From an uncultured Rubritalea sp. (GTDB taxonomy: Bacteria > Verrucomicrobiota > Verrucomicrobiia > Verrucomicrobiales > Akkermansiaceae): a stretch of DNA of 51,126 nucleotides. The DNA is taken from the NCBI GenBank assembly GCA_937132085.1, contig CAKZNV010000222.1, positions 1 through 51,126 on the forward strand, in the 5' to 3' direction. The position numbers and the translations under genes were made by a program. This document shows, piece after piece, positions 33,969 to 42,278 of this stretch. A model generated the notes under the pieces. The model had not been told where the DNA came from. It did no database searches and worked only from the letters and a program-made list of their open reading frames with translations. The number at the start of each line of letters is the position of its first letter. Position 1 is the stretch's first letter.

Positions 33969-35615
33969 TTAATGCCCTTTCTTCTTAGGAATCTTTTTCT
34001 TAGCAGCAAATTCCTCGTAAGTAGGAGCCTCTAAATCCTTCCTCACCTGATGATAACGCTTAGTCAGATCCGCTTGAACATCCTTATATTCAGCCTTGCC
34101 ATAAACACTCTGCATCTCCTCTGGATCGTTCACCAAATCGAACATCTGCCACTCCTCAGTCTCTGGAATATAGAACAACTTATGCGTCTTAGTTCTCACA
34201 CCAAAATGCTGAGGCACACGGTGCTCCCCGAGCTCATAGTAGGCATAATACAGTATGTCTCTAACCTCTTTTGTAGAATCTTTAAGTATCGGAACGATGG
34301 ATTTACCTTGGACTTCCGCCGGAGTATCGATCCCTGCCATGTCTAGGAATGTTGGTGCGTAATCAATATTCTGAATCATTGCTAATGGCTTGCTACCAGC
34401 CTTGATCACACCTGGCCACTTGATCAGAAATGGCATCTTGAACGACTCCTCAAACATCCAGCGCTTGTCAAACCATCCGTGCTCACCAAGGTAGAACCCC
34501 TGATCAGATGAGTAGATCACGATCGTATTTTCCTCTAGATCGTTATCCTTTAGATACTTCAAAACCTTACCTACATTTTCATCCACAGATTTCACCGTCG
34601 CTAGATAGTTCTTCATGTAGCGTTGATACTTCCACTGCACCATTTGCTTGTGGCTTACTTTACCAGCTTTGTAGTCAGCGATGAATCGAGCATTGAGCGG
34701 ACCAAAGTGCGCATCCCAAGCCTTCTTTTGCTCTTTATTCATACGGTTGTATTCAGGAGTGCCGTAGTTTCTGAAGTTGGGTAGTTTCACTCCATCCATC
34801 TCTGAATTACGGAGTTTAAGATCGTATTGCCAAGTCAAGTGACGATCAATTTCCATCTCATTTTGAGGAAGTGTTTTACTGCGGTTTGTGTATTCATCAA
34901 AAAGTGAATCTGGCTCAGGTATCGTCACACCATTAAATGCGTTTAGATCACGAAGAGCTGGAGAAAACGTGCGATGTGGCGCCTTATACTGACACATCAA
35001 CATGAATGGTTTCGACTTGTCTCTCCCATCCAACCAAGCCAGTGACTTGTCAGTAGTAATATCAGTCACATAGCCTTGGAAACGCTTCTTTTTACCATCC
35101 ATCTGAATGAAGTCAGGATTGTAATAACTCCCCTGCCCAGGCAGAATCTCCCAGTAGTCGAAGCCAGTAGGTTTCGTTTTTAGGTGCCACTTTCCAATCA
35201 CTGCCGATTGATACCCTGCCTTGCCAAATGCTTTGATAAACGTCCATTGACTCTGATCAAATCCCTTACCTCCGCTATTTCTGAGAAATCCATTCTTATG
35301 ACTGTGCTTGCCAGATAAAATACAAGCTCTTGATGGACCACAGATCGAATTCGCACAAAATGAGTTCTTAAAAATTGCCCCCTCTGACGCCAAGCGATCA
35401 ATATTGGGAGTCGGTGCTAATTTCTCAAATCTACCACCATAGGCAGAGATCGCATTCAGAGCGTGATCGTCAGAAAACAGAAAAACGATATTCGGTTTCT
35501 CCGTCTTTTCATTCTTCACTTGTTCTGCCTGCGCAGTCGCTAATGGAGTCAGCGGCACTGTCATCATTAGTAAACTAGCTAATCCGTGTATCTTTGATTT
35601 AATATGATTCTTCAT
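33969..35615 (-). CDS. Secreted sulfatase with basic C-terminal tail
   Basis: This is a sulfatase of 548 residues. The frame is open further upstream into the neighbouring gene, but the ATG at 35615 gives a signal peptide (MKNHIKSKIHGLASLLMMTV...TAQA) and was chosen. The metal-binding FSDDHALNAISAYGG (Asp49-Asp50) and formylglycine motif CGPSR (Cys92) followed by SG are present, with GKWHLK and IYSSDQGFYLGEHGWFDKRWMFEE further on, the pattern of iduronate-2-sulfatase-like and N-sulfoglucosamine-like enzymes. It ends in KKKIPKKKGH. It follows the YdcF-like gene by 58 bp. Confidence 0.92.
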   Translation of the reverse strand: MKNHIKSKIHGLASLLMMTVPLTPLATAQAEQVKNEKTEKPNIVFLFSDDHALNAISAYGGRFEKLAPTPNIDRLASEGAIFKNSFCANSICGPSRACILSGKHSHKNGFLRNSGGKGFDQSQWTFIKAFGKAGYQSAVIGKWHLKTKPTGFDYWEILPGQGSYYNPDFIQMDGKKKRFQGYVTDITTDKSLAWLDGRDKSKPFMLMCQYKAPHRTFSPALRDLNAFNGVTIPEPDSLFDEYTNRSKTLPQNEMEIDRHLTWQYDLKLRNSEMDGVKLPNFRNYGTPEYNRMNKEQKKAWDAHFGPLNARFIADYKAGKVSHKQMVQWKYQRYMKNYLATVKSVDENVGKVLKYLKDNDLEENTIVIYSSDQGFYLGEHGWFDKRWMFEESFKMPFLIKWPGVIKAGSKPLAMIQNIDYAPTFLDMAGIDTPAEVQGKSIVPILKDSTKEVRDILYYAYYELGEHRVPQHFGVRTKTHKLFYIPETEEWQMFDLVNDPEEMQSVYGKAEYKDVQADLTKRYHQVRKDLEAPTYEEFAAKKKIPKKKGH

Positions 35616-35673
35616 CTGATTTATACTATATACCATTGATCTGATCGCTTTGTTACAATCTTTTTCCAAAAGC

Positions 35674-36321
35674 TTACAACACATGATCCACATAGCCTGC
35701 ATCTACAAGCAGTTGCCAAGCTGTCATCACCTCTTCAGGAACCTCTTGCTCAATCATAAACCCTCGCTTCGGATACTCTACTATTCGCTGCATATCTCCG
35801 ACCATGATGTGAATCACTTTCTCATTAGGAATTTCCTCATTACAATATTCCTCAAAACTCAACTGTGGAGAAGTCACCTGTAGCTCGACCTCTTCCCATT
35901 GCTTAGCAATGGTCGCATACGCCCTTCTCTCCATATAGGGTTTCTGAACTGCTATAGCAGACTTAACAGACAATGCTTCTTGCTCGATCAAAGCTCTTGT
36001 AAAAGCAACATTTTCACCTGAGTTAGTAGATTTACATTCTAAAAAGATGACCCTTGATGGCACTCCTAACTCGACTGCTCTATCGGCAAATAGTTCCGCT
36101 TCAGACTTCTCGAACACACCCTCAGTAAAATTGCCTAAACCACCAGACATCACCACGATAGGCGCTAGCCCCTGATGCCACAGCTCCGCAACACGATCCG
36201 CCACACGCAAGTCATGACTCCCCAGTGCCCATATCATATCCGCAGCTTGCAGGTCTTGATTCATCTGAAGATACTTCCATAGCAAATCCACTGCTTGTTT
36301 GACTTCTAATTCCGAGTTCAT
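35674..36321 (-). CDS. YdcF-like DUF218 protein
   Basis: This cytoplasmic protein of 215 residues (from the ATG at 36321; another ATG at 36363 would add 14) has DUF218 features: MIWALGSHDLRVADRVAELW, then PIVVMSGGLGNFTEG, LGVPSRVIFLECKSTNSGENVAFTRAL and YMERRAYATIAKQW. E. coli YdcF, a SAM-binding protein of unknown role, has the same layout and N-terminal length, which favours the second ATG. It is divergent from the candidate selenoprotein gene and probably co-transcribed with the sulfatase downstream. Confidence 0.85.
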   Translation of the reverse strand: MNSELEVKQAVDLLWKYLQMNQDLQAADMIWALGSHDLRVADRVAELWHQGLAPIVVMSGGLGNFTEGVFEKSEAELFADRAVELGVPSRVIFLECKSTNSGENVAFTRALIEQEALSVKSAIAVQKPYMERRAYATIAKQWEEVELQVTSPQLSFEEYCNEEIPNEKVIHIMVGDMQRIVEYPKRGFMIEQEVPEEVMTAWQLLVDAGYVDHVL

Positions 36322-36446: not shown

Positions 36447-37664
36447 ATGAAATTTTCATCTTTCCTAATCTTGGCTTTTTGCTGGAGCATCAACCTCAAT
36501 GCTCAAGATATTGACTACAAAAAAGTTCATCAATTAGTCCAATCAACAAAGGATGAAACGACTTGGAAAGATCAGATAGATTGGCAAACTGACCTGTGGC
36601 AAGCCAGACAACTGGCTGGTAAGCTAGGTAAACCAATCTTCATTTGGGAAATGGATGGCCACCCGATGGGCTGCACCTGAAACAATGGCGTCTTGAACCG
36701 TGAGTTCATATTCTCAAACCCTAAAACAATCAAATGGCTACAGCAGGACTGCATCTCAGTAGTCGGTGATGACTGGTATCGCAGAAGGGCTAAGGACGAC
36801 GCTTCAGTGTGGTTCCGCAGTCTCGCCAAGAAAGCTGGCAGAGGAAAAAATGGAACTACTCAGCAAGGTTGCTACTTAGTCTCAGCCAATGGCGACCTGC
36901 TAGCCTTCATCAACACCAACAGTTTTGAACATTTCACTAGTCGAATGCAGAACGGAATGAAGAAATGGAATCAGTTACCTGCAGATCAGAAAAAAGCAGT
37001 GATCCCAGCTGCAAAGAACCACGACTATAAACTCAATGTCCCACCTATCGATCCGAGCAGAGACAAGGTATTCGAAGTCCAATCCAGAGCTCTCACTCAG
37101 AACGCCGGGAAACTCAGCCGATGGAATAGCCAAGGAAAAGTCGGCGGTCTCTCCACCCTAGGCCACCTCTGGATCAAGCAACAAGAGTGGGACAGCTTCA
37201 TAAAACAAATCAACGGACTAGAGCTCAACCAGAAGATCGTTTTCCCTAACAGAATCACTCATCGCATCGCACGCTTCCACCTAGTCGACAACACACGAGG
37301 TGAAGGTCCAGCATGGAGAATGAAGGACATTAAAACCGCTGTTCTATTCGTCACTAGAACCAGTAAAGGATACCAGATCCAAGGTGACTTCCATCTAGAG
37401 AACACCACCGATAAACGCAGCTACATGGCCAATCTAACAGGACTCCTAACACTCGCTAACAAGCAGCCAAAATCATGGACCATGACCGTCTATGGCAAGC
37501 ACCAAGGAGAAGGCAGATTCACTCGGAATGCCAGACCAGGCGCCCAGCCACTAGCCTTCACCTTTGAGTATCTAGCCAAGCCAGAAGACATCAGACCAGT
37601 AGACCTAGTCCCACCCCAGCACATGCGTTGGCAACGAGGCTACTGGGAAGCTGAAAAGCACTAA
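36447..37664 (+). CDS. Candidate selenoprotein, secreted, thioredoxin-like N-terminus (in-frame UGA as Sec78)
   Basis: The frame beginning at the ATG at 36447 stays open for 405 codons to 37664 except for one TGA at 36678-36680 (codon 78). The N-terminus has a signal peptide (MKFSSFLILAFCWSINLNAQ). Before the TGA the chain reads WQARQLAGKLGKPIFIWEMD and GHPMGCT, as in thioredoxin-like proteins that place Cys after a beta strand; after it comes NNGVLNREFIFSNPKTIKWL and DDWYRRR. A Cys two residues before the UGA would give a Cys-Thr-Sec redox pair. A stem (TGAAC/GTTCA) with loop CGTGA sits 14-28 nt after the UGA, matching a bacterial SECIS position. The C-terminal 250 residues are not recognised. 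A nonsense mutation is the alternative, but no other disruption is seen. The gene is divergent from the YdcF-like gene and converges on the nuclease-fold gene. Confidence 0.75.
36678..36710 (+). promoter_or_regulatory. UGA and possible bacterial SECIS hairpin
   Basis: TGA at 36678-36680 is followed by TGAAC (36694-36698), loop CGTGA and GTTCA (36704-36708), a 5-bp perfect stem. The loop is about 19 nt past the UGA and has G in its first two bases, as SelB-binding loops do. The lower stem is weak (AAT/ATT only). Confidence 0.5.
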
Positions 37665-39850: not shown

Positions 39851-41053
39851 ATGAATAAGCGCCCTACTATCGGAATCAGAATGCCTCCTTGGACTAACTC
39901 CACATGGCTCATTCTTGGTGGAATAATGGACTATCTTAAGGACAATGAAATATGGAAAATAGTGACTGAAGACAATTCCTATGGAGAAATGGAAACGATT
40001 CACATAGGCGTAGGCTGGAAAGGTGACGGTGTTATTCTATACCGTGCTACCGATGAGGAGTTAGAGTATTTCAAAGAAAATAATATAGCAGTCTGTCTAC
40101 TCAGTTCTGAGGGACCAGATGGCAGTTTCCCAAGAGTGATCCCTGACAATGTATCCATCGGAGAACTTGCTGCCAGACATCTATTAGAAACAGGTGCTCA
40201 GAGCTTCGGTTTCCTAGCTAGAGGCGAGACACTTTACAAAGAAAAGATTCATTCACCTGGAATACGTATCTACCCGAGACAGAGGCTAAAAGGCTACGTC
40301 AAACAACTTAAAAAAAGGGGGTTCGAGCCAGACGTTTTTTACTTAAAGGGCTACCCTCTGTGGAAAAAAGACACCTGGAAAAAAATAGAAAAAGATGTCT
40401 CAAGCTATCTCAAAAGCCTACCTAAACAAACAGCCCTCTTCTGTGCTGATGACGCTCTAGCATCAGTAGCTCTCAGAGTGGCTGAGAAACAAAACATCAA
40501 AGTCCCTGAAGAGCTCATGGTGCTAGGTTTTGGAAATACGATTAACTATTGTCACTCTACCCTCCCAGCCATGAGTTCCATTGTTTATCCAGGCCGCACT
40601 ATTGGTTTAGAGGCTTCAAGAATCATCGCCAAACAACTATCCCAAGATTATGAAACACCAAAAACGTTACACATTGGGATTGAGGATATTAAAGAACGAG
40701 AATCAACCTCATTTATTGCGATAGAGGATCCAGAGATCGCAGCGCTCGTAAAGTGGATCAGACTCAAAGCACCAACCGAAGCAATCCAAGTCTCCGACCT
40801 GCAGGAACACACCAGCTACTCACTCAGTTCCATTAAACTCAAATTCAAGGAATGTCTAGGTCACAGTCCTAAGGATGAAATCAAGCAGGTCAGGGTTACC
40901 CGATTAAAGAGCCATTTAAAAGACATCGGCAAAAACCTCACGGACATCTCCCAAGAAATGGACTTTAGATCAACCGAAGAAATGAGCCGATTTTTCCTCC
41001 GAGAGACTGGACTACGTCCTAGTATCTTCCGCCAACAATTAAAGCCACGATAG
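39851..41053 (+). CDS. XylR-type LacI/AraC hybrid transcriptional regulator
   Basis: This 400-residue protein starts at the ATG at 39851 (the frame extends upstream to a TTG, but MNKRPTIGIRMPPWTNSTW is a good start). The first 280 or so residues are a LacI-like ligand domain (ARHLLETGAQSFGFLARG, ALFCADDALASVALRVAE), and the last 110 an AraC DNA-binding domain (IQVSDLQEHTSYSLSSIKLKFKECLG). It is divergent from the EEP gene and 21 bp upstream of an EamA gene, so either may be a target. A repeated word TCTATTTTAGC lies near it and upstream of the PEP-CTERM gene. Confidence 0.92.
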   Translation: MNKRPTIGIRMPPWTNSTWLILGGIMDYLKDNEIWKIVTEDNSYGEMETIHIGVGWKGDGVILYRATDEELEYFKENNIAVCLLSSEGPDGSFPRVIPDNVSIGELAARHLLETGAQSFGFLARGETLYKEKIHSPGIRIYPRQRLKGYVKQLKKRGFEPDVFYLKGYPLWKKDTWKKIEKDVSSYLKSLPKQTALFCADDALASVALRVAEKQNIKVPEELMVLGFGNTINYCHSTLPAMSSIVYPGRTIGLEASRIIAKQLSQDYETPKTLHIGIEDIKERESTSFIAIEDPEIAALVKWIRLKAPTEAIQVSDLQEHTSYSLSSIKLKFKECLGHSPKDEIKQVRVTRLKSHLKDIGKNLTDISQEMDFRSTEEMSRFFLRETGLRPSIFRQQLKPR

Positions 41054-41074
41054 CCAACCCACCATTTTCTTATT

Positions 41075-41491
41075 ATGAGTCCAAATCTAATCATTATTCT
41101 TTGCATCATCCTCTGGGGGGTATGGGGATTCACGAACAAATTTTGCAATATGCAGAATTCTCCCGTATTTGTCACATTGGCTACTAATCTACTCTACGCA
41201 GCTTGCTCTCTACCTTTACTTTTCAAAGTGAAATATCAAGAGATCAACTGGAGCATGTCAGCGATGGGGTGGTTAATAGCTACAGCTGGACTCGGAGTAG
41301 CTGCAAAGCTTATGTTCAACTCTGCTCTCGCAAAAGCTCCTGCATCTGTCGTTGTTTCCGCTACATCCGTATTCCCAATAGTTACCGTCATCTTAGCCGC
41401 AATCTTCTTAAAGGAAAAGATTAACATCCAACAGAGCGTTGGCTTGTGCCTGTGCGTGTCTGGCGTTTATTTGATGACTTTAAATAGCTGA
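41075..41491 (+). CDS. Half-size EamA-family transporter
   Basis: This 138-residue protein has about five transmembrane helices and one EamA repeat (ILCIILWGVWGFTNKF at the start and PIVTVILAAIFLKEKINIQQSVGLCLCVSGVYLM at the end). Typical DMT transporters have two such repeats in tandem, so this would act as a dimer, as in small multidrug resistance proteins. It follows the XylR-type regulator by 21 bp. The substrate is unknown. Confidence 0.85.
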   Translation: MSPNLIIILCIILWGVWGFTNKFCNMQNSPVFVTLATNLLYAACSLPLLFKVKYQEINWSMSAMGWLIATAGLGVAAKLMFNSALAKAPASVVVSATSVFPIVTVILAAIFLKEKINIQQSVGLCLCVSGVYLMTLNS

Positions 41492-41534
41492 TAATTCCCG
41501 GCAGAAAGCCCTGTCGAAACAAAGCCTCACCTCG

Positions 41535-41567
41535 TCTATTTTAGCCCCCGAAAGTCCATTTTAGACA
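41535..41567 (+). promoter_or_regulatory. Possible regulator-binding repeat upstream of PEP-CTERM gene
   Basis: TCTATTTTAGC at 41535 and CCATTTTAGACAT shortly after form a direct repeat. TCTATTTTAGC also occurs at 39810-39820 and its near complement CAAAATAGAC at 39725-39734, both next to the XylR-type gene. Inference only. Confidence 0.3.
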
Positions 41568-41633
41568 TATTCATCACTGCTTCTCATGGTATGTTCGTTA
41601 GGAATTAATCTTATAAATCCAACAAACAAACAC

Positions 41634-42278
41634 ATGAAAAACAATAATTTTATCCGCACTAGTGCGATCGCAGGAAGTGTCAGCCTAGCAACTATTCTAG
41701 GCTCTAATGCTGCAACAATTCTAACTGGTGAATCTGGCACCAATAATGCCGATGTAACTCTCAATCATGGCTCCAATGCAGCAGGAACTGCAAATATCGC
41801 TCTAGCGTGGACTGTCGGCGAAAATGAGTTTCAGATTTACACTGGCTGGCCTACAGGCGGTGATGTTTACCAGATGGATGATGCCATCGCAGGTAACAAC
41901 TTCACTGTGCTTTTCACCCCTGATTCTGGCTACAATGTAATTTTAACTAGTGCCGACATCAATGCTTGGGCTACCGGAGGATCCTTCGTTCTTGATTGGG
42001 CTGTCACTGGAGCTACTTCTGGTTTATTAGCCTCTGCTGATAACGTTACTGTAGCCGATGGTGCTGTGGATGCTCTCAATTTTGGAGCTACTGGCACAAG
42101 TTCAGAGGCACTCACTTTGACTCTTACCATGGATGCCACATCCACAGGAACTGCTTCATACCTAGCGATGGACAACCTTTCATTCGACCAAGTTGCAGCT
42201 ACAGTTCCAGAACCATCATCTAGCTTACTAGCTGCTGTTGGCCTTGGTGCAATGGCTATGCGCCGTCGTCGCAAGTAA
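41634..42278 (+). CDS. PEP-CTERM surface-sorting protein
   Basis: This exported protein of 214 residues (from the ATG at 41634; an upstream ATG at 41586 would spoil the signal peptide) has a signal peptide ending near SNAATI, an acidic, Gly/Ala/Thr-rich beta body and a C-terminal sorting signal: VPEPSSSLLAAVGLGAMAM then RRRRK. Such proteins are cut and anchored by an exosortase in Gram-negative bacteria with exopolysaccharide. The body is of unknown function. It is followed by a terminator and the TPR sulfotransferase. Confidence 0.9.
   Translation: MKNNNFIRTSAIAGSVSLATILGSNAATILTGESGTNNADVTLNHGSNAAGTANIALAWTVGENEFQIYTGWPTGGDVYQMDDAIAGNNFTVLFTPDSGYNVILTSADINAWATGGSFVLDWAVTGATSGLLASADNVTVADGAVDALNFGATGTSSEALTLTLTMDATSTGTASYLAMDNLSFDQVAATVPEPSSSLLAAVGLGAMAMRRRRK

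Follow-up and report, generated by a model that had tools for sequence, protein, structure and literature searches.

A candidate family of exported thioredoxin-like selenoproteins with a conserved in-frame UGA in Verrucomicrobiota, Planctomycetota and other lineages

Known selenoproteins and thioredoxin-like proteins closest to the locus

Exported selenoproteins are already known and include periplasmic formate dehydrogenases, NiFeSe hydrogenases and DsbA/DsbG-like proteins. The protein in this study is encoded in a 51,126-nucleotide stretch (hereafter the window; contig CAKZNV010000222.1 of assembly GCA_937132085.1, an uncultured Rubritalea sp.). Similar to it, the known exported selenoproteins have their selenocysteine (Sec, U) outside the cytoplasm; however, they belong to unrelated families or possess other motifs and architecture. 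Thioredoxin_7 (PF13899), DsbD-gamma, DsbH and AGR proteins (3f9u, 3ph9, 1uc7, and 2ju5) have the fold of its N-terminal part and, like it, place the nucleophile at the start of the active-site helix. Different from these proteins, whose active sites are CxxC or related, the window protein has CxUxxG, and its C-terminal beta-barrel-like domain is not covered by the matches.

The nearest known selenoprotein family is VPGUxxT (NF041382/NF041383, OS_HP5), although the kinship inferred from profile–profile comparison is remote. The two share a thioredoxin-like domain in which their Sec columns coincide (hhalign probability of 97%). Direct HMM scores, however, were only 13–15 bits against cut-offs of 350 and 275 (for NF041382, the best was 13 against 350, which did not meet the cut-off). 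Moreover, VPGUxxT proteins have their own VPG-U-xxC/T motif, lack the PxGCxU-NNG insertion and differ in their C-terminal part. The source genome also contains a VPGUxxT-like selenoprotein gene that is below the family cut-off (L230, C74:42681-43136), the product of which has a C-terminal part that reads as MsrA-type (HCFWTGE...GVILTEAGW, recognised by eye only). In genome G240, another VPGUxxT-like selenoprotein gene (L231, contig C21:42306-42689) adjoins selA (40942-42222). TsoC (NF045708, "NEPxGxxU") has a similar PxGxxU spacing, as judged from the published motif table, but its HMM matched none of 45 members of the family at E ≤ 1. Likewise, the Trx7/PDZ selenoprotein (NF041199) has a Thioredoxin_7-type domain with Sec, but it possesses CxxU and a PDZ domain, and its HMM hit a single member, at 12.7 bits (cut-off of 300).

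Neither NCBIfam release 20 nor Pfam gave a match to the window protein at the E-values applied, and none of the members scanned individually reached an NCBIfam cut-off. No entry of the 119-family catalogue of May 2026 was matched by motif (PMC13188914); entries without a motif were excluded solely via the NCBIfam scan where a model exists. The family of exported thioredoxin-like selenoproteins appears to be uncatalogued; an earlier listing of a member among Porphyra planctomycetes (PMC4807772) is not excluded. In the first-pass annotation of the window, no well-described exported selenoprotein was known to have such a layout. For the family and its active site, which are absent from the catalogues consulted, this held; exported selenoproteins in themselves are not new.

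The in-frame UGA and its conservation

Reading of the sequence confirmed that the otherwise open frame is interrupted by a single in-frame TGA, at codon 78, in the context ...WEMDGHPMGCT-U-NNGVLNREF (Table 1). This UGA splits the gene, and standard-code annotation would yield two pieces. Judged from the window alone, the evidence for Sec is suggestive only, but conservation of the TGA and of the downstream stem among relatives carries it far beyond chance.

Table 1. Features of the selenoprotein locus in window coordinates
Feature	Position	Strand	Remarks
Selenoprotein gene	36447..37664	+	405 codons, one Sec-UGA, then TAA
Probable signal peptide, residues 1-19, MKFSSFLILAFCWSINLNA	36447..36503	+	Read from sequence; cleavage site inferred
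Thioredoxin-like domain (predicted), residues 35-178, DsbD-gamma/Thioredoxin_7/AGR type	36549..36980	+	AlphaFold, VIA-align, weak Pfam
Cys76, position -2 from Sec	36672..36674	+	Cys at -2 in 107/142 members
TGA codon 78, almost certainly Sec	36678..36680	+	Column invariant in 45 aligned members; TGA in 80/80 pattern matches
Asn79-Asn80-Gly81 after Sec	36681..36689	+	Gly81 at the resolving-Cys place of CxxC proteins
Putative SECIS hairpin	36694..36708	+	Stem TGAAC/GTTCA, loop CGTGA, loop 18 nt after TGA
Gln140 (QG)	36864..36866	+	At or adjoining the thioredoxin cis-proline position, inferred from alignment; Gln in 38/45 members
C-terminal beta-rich domain (predicted), residues about 205-380	37059..37586	+	Separate model, pLDDT 90, pTM 0.88

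A family search of 260 genomes gave matches in 55. The full-length homologues, from about 40 related genomes, carried one TGA at the homologous place and not the unrelated residues that would have refuted the first-pass annotation. One strong match lacked the TGA and was a fragment that starts past that codon at a contig end. A second TGA or TAA, located beyond the gene itself, was found in the read-through frame of a few members. The Sec column was invariant in a 45-member alignment, as were Trp46, Pro63, Arg85, and Gly149, and both sides of the TGA were otherwise conserved as an open frame. A paralogue on another contig of the source genome, with 31% identity in the thioredoxin-like region but only 22% overall, had its sole TGA at the aligned position. 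This paralogue (L002:733-1998, minus strand, contig C86) has Sec in NCUQNGV and its own hairpin, AAGGCA-GUC-UGCCUU; its opposite-strand neighbour is a gene for a thioredoxin-like lipoprotein in which the active-site cysteines are missing (ADWSVMGQ, judged by eye).

For an unbiased codon test, the tested codon was set to NNN in a DNA pattern encoding W-x-M-[DN]-G-[HN]-P-x-[GK]-x-x-?-N-N-G, and about 85,000 species genomes were scanned with it. At least 117 stretches matched, and all of the 80 retrieved had TGA at the tested codon, with no TGG, TGC or TGT. The TGA matches were mostly from Planctomycetota and Verrucomicrobiota (including Kiritimatiellia), and others were from Chloroflexota, Armatimonadota, Latescibacterota, Poribacteria and one archaeal bin. 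The member in the bin labelled Methanoregulaceae archaeon (L165) might represent contamination or transfer, between which we could not decide. Because the pattern reflects the main subfamilies and leaves out the CU subfamilies, the claim that Cys is absent is strongest for the main groups.

No Cys replacement at the Sec column was found in close homologues. Cys occurred there solely in remote CxxC Thioredoxin_7 proteins, which match the N-terminal domain alone. A weakly related group of exported-looking, 267-residue paralogues of one genus (L085, L089, and L090) has Gly at the Sec column, in GCGLEG, and Cys one residue before, which possibly reflects loss of the selenium function. Further divergent groups have TGA at the same column, in RTUGACTG (L082 and L086), EFCUANG (L087 and L091) and GHCUATAT (L088, L092, and L093); they may be separate selenoprotein families. 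A SECIS-like hairpin was found in most of them, whereas L086 had none in a stricter scan.

In the phylogeny, the window sequence grouped with two sequences of the same genus inside a verrucomicrobial set, and those of Planctomycetota, Armatimonadota and others were interleaved elsewhere. From the tree alone, the interleaving is likely to reflect either transfer or old paralogy, which remain unresolved. No relative was found in viral contigs by a pattern that back-translated Sec as Cys codons and was thus unable to match TGA.

Downstream hairpin, selenocysteine machinery and alternative readings of the UGA

The hairpin TGAAC-CGTGA-GTTCA lies 14–28 nt past the TGA, exactly where the first-pass annotation had placed it, at the spacing that it gave as needed for a SelB-type SECIS element. 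Published bSECIS criteria (PMC13188914) are a hairpin 16–37 nt downstream, a G in the first two loop positions and a threshold of -7.5 kcal/mol. Their geometry was met by the hairpin of the window and by those of most members. At -2.4 to -3.5 kcal/mol, however, the window hairpin misses the energy threshold, and about 6% of synonymous-codon shuffles gave a SECIS-like hairpin that was as stable. An Rfam gathering search of the window gave no match. The proposed SECIS is supported by its geometry and the covariation of its stem but not by the energy of the window's own hairpin.

Covariation was assessed in 40 sequences with a CGU loop, including that of the window, in which double-sided changes were found in 6/6 pairs. 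Pairing was formed in 92.5% of the cells, compared with 24–45% when the stem was slid by 1 to 3 bases, and the covariation score was reached by 0/500 shuffles. The 40 were picked from 59 distinct sequences with CGT at the Arg85 codon, with near-copies and divergent sequences without the CCGTG context dropped, and this selection raises the pairing percentage. Among all 59, the inner five pairs were formed in 90–95% and the outermost in 54%, whereas shifted registers were mostly below 50%. The aligned sequences indicate that the UGA-linked hairpin is under selection. Subfamilies differed in their hairpins, each at its own fixed spacing (+18, +19, +23, and +31), such as GACCGACA-GGU-UGUUGGUC at +19, AAGGCA-GUC-UGCCUU at +23 and GGUCU-GGUC-AGACC at +31.

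The source genome, of an Akkermansiaceae-like verrucomicrobium, is 4.46 Mb in size and 98.7% complete. All of selA, selB, selC, and selD were found in it; absence of the first three would have refuted the earlier proposal. The tRNA-Sec (selC) scored 58.3 bits against an Rfam cut-off of 47 and was named tRNA-SeC with anticodon TCA (UCA) by ARAGORN, and the profile scores of SelB, SelA, and SelD were 306, 503, and 373 bits, respectively. The SelD protein likewise contains Sec, encoded by a TGA in CGGUASK. Among 260 genomes of the same family, selA was found in 39/41 carriers and 31/219 non-carriers (Fisher p = 1e-24). This p value overstates the case, as no phylogenetic correction was made and close relatives are not independent. 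The two carriers without selA are assemblies that are 70–72% complete. Moreover, SelA was above its cut-off in 18/20 further carriers, mostly of other lineages.

In four Rhodopirellula/Rubripirellula-like loci, the selenoprotein gene is near selA and, on the opposite strand, a gene for an oxidoreductase–selD fusion. Clustering of neighbours revealed no broadly conserved operon partner of the selenoprotein gene, and several of the large clusters were apparently opposite-strand or other-frame shadows of the selenoprotein gene itself. A sulfatase-like gene (33969-35702, minus strand) lies near it in the window, and similar ORFs were clustered near the selenoprotein gene in six other loci, which probably reflects the abundance of such genes in these phyla.

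In-frame stops that occur singly in draft assemblies are often errors, and the window hairpin alone is weak, so that the TGA could be taken for the result of faulty sequencing or the relic of a degraded pseudogene. This is hardly conceivable, since the identical TGA recurs in dozens of genomes of independent assembly and in every retrieved match of the codon test, the frame is kept on both sides of the TGA and the stem covaries. Reading of UGA as Trp or Cys without selenium, through an altered genetic code or a Cys tRNA that decodes UGA, would fit the Cys at the Sec column of the remote CxxC relatives. It is nevertheless very improbable, because the genome has tRNA-Sec and selA/selB/selD, which occur together with the family, the UGA-linked hairpin is selected, TGG, TGC, and TGT are missing from the 80 matches, and the homologue in G240 uses TGA as its ordinary terminal stop. 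Partial termination at a Sec-UGA is common under selenium shortage, and the TGA might accordingly be a real stop with programmed readthrough, of which an exported peptide of 77 residues is also a product. Such a product, however, would stop in the middle of the thioredoxin fold, ahead of the active-site helix, and the two halves around the TGA are conserved together, so that we give this possibility very little weight as well.

Taken as a whole, we are highly confident that the ORF is a selenoprotein gene, and its in-frame UGA almost certainly encodes Sec according to these sequence comparisons. The conserved TGA, the covarying stem, the Sec machinery and the fold prediction are all computation-backed; the Sec assignment is very secure in that sense, and no experiment has shown Sec in the protein.

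Predicted architecture, active site and possible function

The protein is predicted to consist of a secreted domain of the DsbD-gamma/Thioredoxin_7 type followed by a C-terminal beta-barrel-like domain. The N-terminus looks like a signal peptide, as the first-pass annotation had read it, and comparable N-termini were found in most relatives. Export is inferred from this reading alone. The thioredoxin-like region that had also been proposed gained support from an AlphaFold model, which was built with Cys in place of Sec (mean pLDDT of 92), from VIA-align and from weak Pfam matches. For residues 35–178, VIA-align gave Z of 13.3 to 3f9u (rmsd of 2.7 over 125 residues), 12.1 to AGR3 and about 10 to DsbD-gamma, and DsbH was also among the closest. 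Thioredoxin_7 of Pfam weakly matched 26/45 members, with a best E of 5.6e-4, and did not match the window protein. A Foldseek search with the whole model found no match below 1e-3, and most of the thioredoxin relatives emerged by VIA-align alone. No convincing solved relative was found for the C-terminal domain (best Z of 6.2). PsbO, NspA, fHbp and lipocalin-like barrels were rejected as relatives, for at Z ≤ 6.2 they resemble it in shape only. The absence of a solved relative does not show that the fold of this domain is new.

In profile alignment with CxxC proteins (L096/L097), Sec78 aligned to the first Cys and Gly81 to the second. Thus, the protein does not have a CxxC active site but U-x-x-G in its place, and Gly at +3 was found in 136/142 members. 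A Cys two residues before Sec, which had been pointed out previously, is present in the window protein and most members but is not universal: in 13/142 members Cys is at -1 instead, and in 7/142 the positions -1 to -4 are without any Cys, which means that an internal selenenylsulfide cannot be general. The -2 Cys was dropped as an essential partner, for it is absent at that position in 35/142 members. These counts include some near-copies. Conserved in the family are Sec78, Gln140, Asn80, and Trp46, which may be compared with the Sec-Gln-Trp-Asn set of glutathione peroxidases (GPX), although the distances are unmeasured; no match to Pfam GPX (PF00255) was found at E ≤ 1.

In the mechanism that we propose, UGA78 is decoded by SelB with Sec-tRNA(Sec), aided by the hairpin just downstream, to yield the two-domain protein, thioredoxin-like and C-terminal beta-barrel-like; these two steps have good support from sequence. 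The remaining steps are inferred. The signal peptide would carry the protein over the inner membrane. Outside the cytoplasm, Sec78 would stand in for the nucleophilic Cys at the start of the active-site helix and attack a disulfide, peroxide or sulfoxide as its oxidised substrate. With Gly81 in place of the usual resolving Cys, resolution of the oxidised Se might depend on the Cys at -2 or -1 in members that have it, through a C-x-U or C-U selenenylsulfide, and otherwise on an outside thiol, such as that of a DsbD-like partner. Binding of a substrate or partner is the probable role of the C-terminal domain. In the absence of activity data, redox catalysis is inferred and seems likely, while the specific route of resolution is only a tentative suggestion.

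A selenoprotein for binding or transfer, such as a carrier of a metal, metalloid or selenium, would be consistent with the loss of the resolving Cys, the lack of a universal Cys near Sec and a C-terminal domain shaped, albeit at low scores, like ligand binders. However, Sec occupies the catalytic position of an oxidoreductase fold, and a redox role is assumed for most of the known selenoproteins with the thioredoxin fold (PMC13188914), which renders a non-redox role unlikely without excluding it. The protein is probably an extracytoplasmic selenol oxidoreductase with an unidentified substrate; neither a substrate, a partner nor a widely conserved operon was found for the family. A more specific and rather doubtful hypothesis is that of an extracytoplasmic selenium peroxidase or reductase that lacks a resolving Cys, has a Sec/Gln/Asn/Trp centre and evolved on a Thioredoxin_7/DsbD-gamma scaffold separately from GPX and peroxiredoxins. 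If it were true, Sec would be indispensable, as Cys would not be tolerated, and this would account for the lack of Cys orthologues and for the family having been missed by Cys-homology pipelines.

SECIS-independent pipelines seek Cys/Sec pairs, and the new families of deep-Sep all have Cys homologues (PMC13188914; PMC12013277). That no close Cys homologue was found here suggests that such pipelines miss strictly selenium-dependent families. Roseibacillus persicicus KCTC 12988 (L171) is a named strain in which it can be asked why Cys does not replace Sec. The results appear to add a widespread selenoprotein family, from at least six phylum-level lineages, to the catalogue of 119, and they point to extracytoplasmic selenium-dependent chemistry in planctomycetes and verrucomicrobia.
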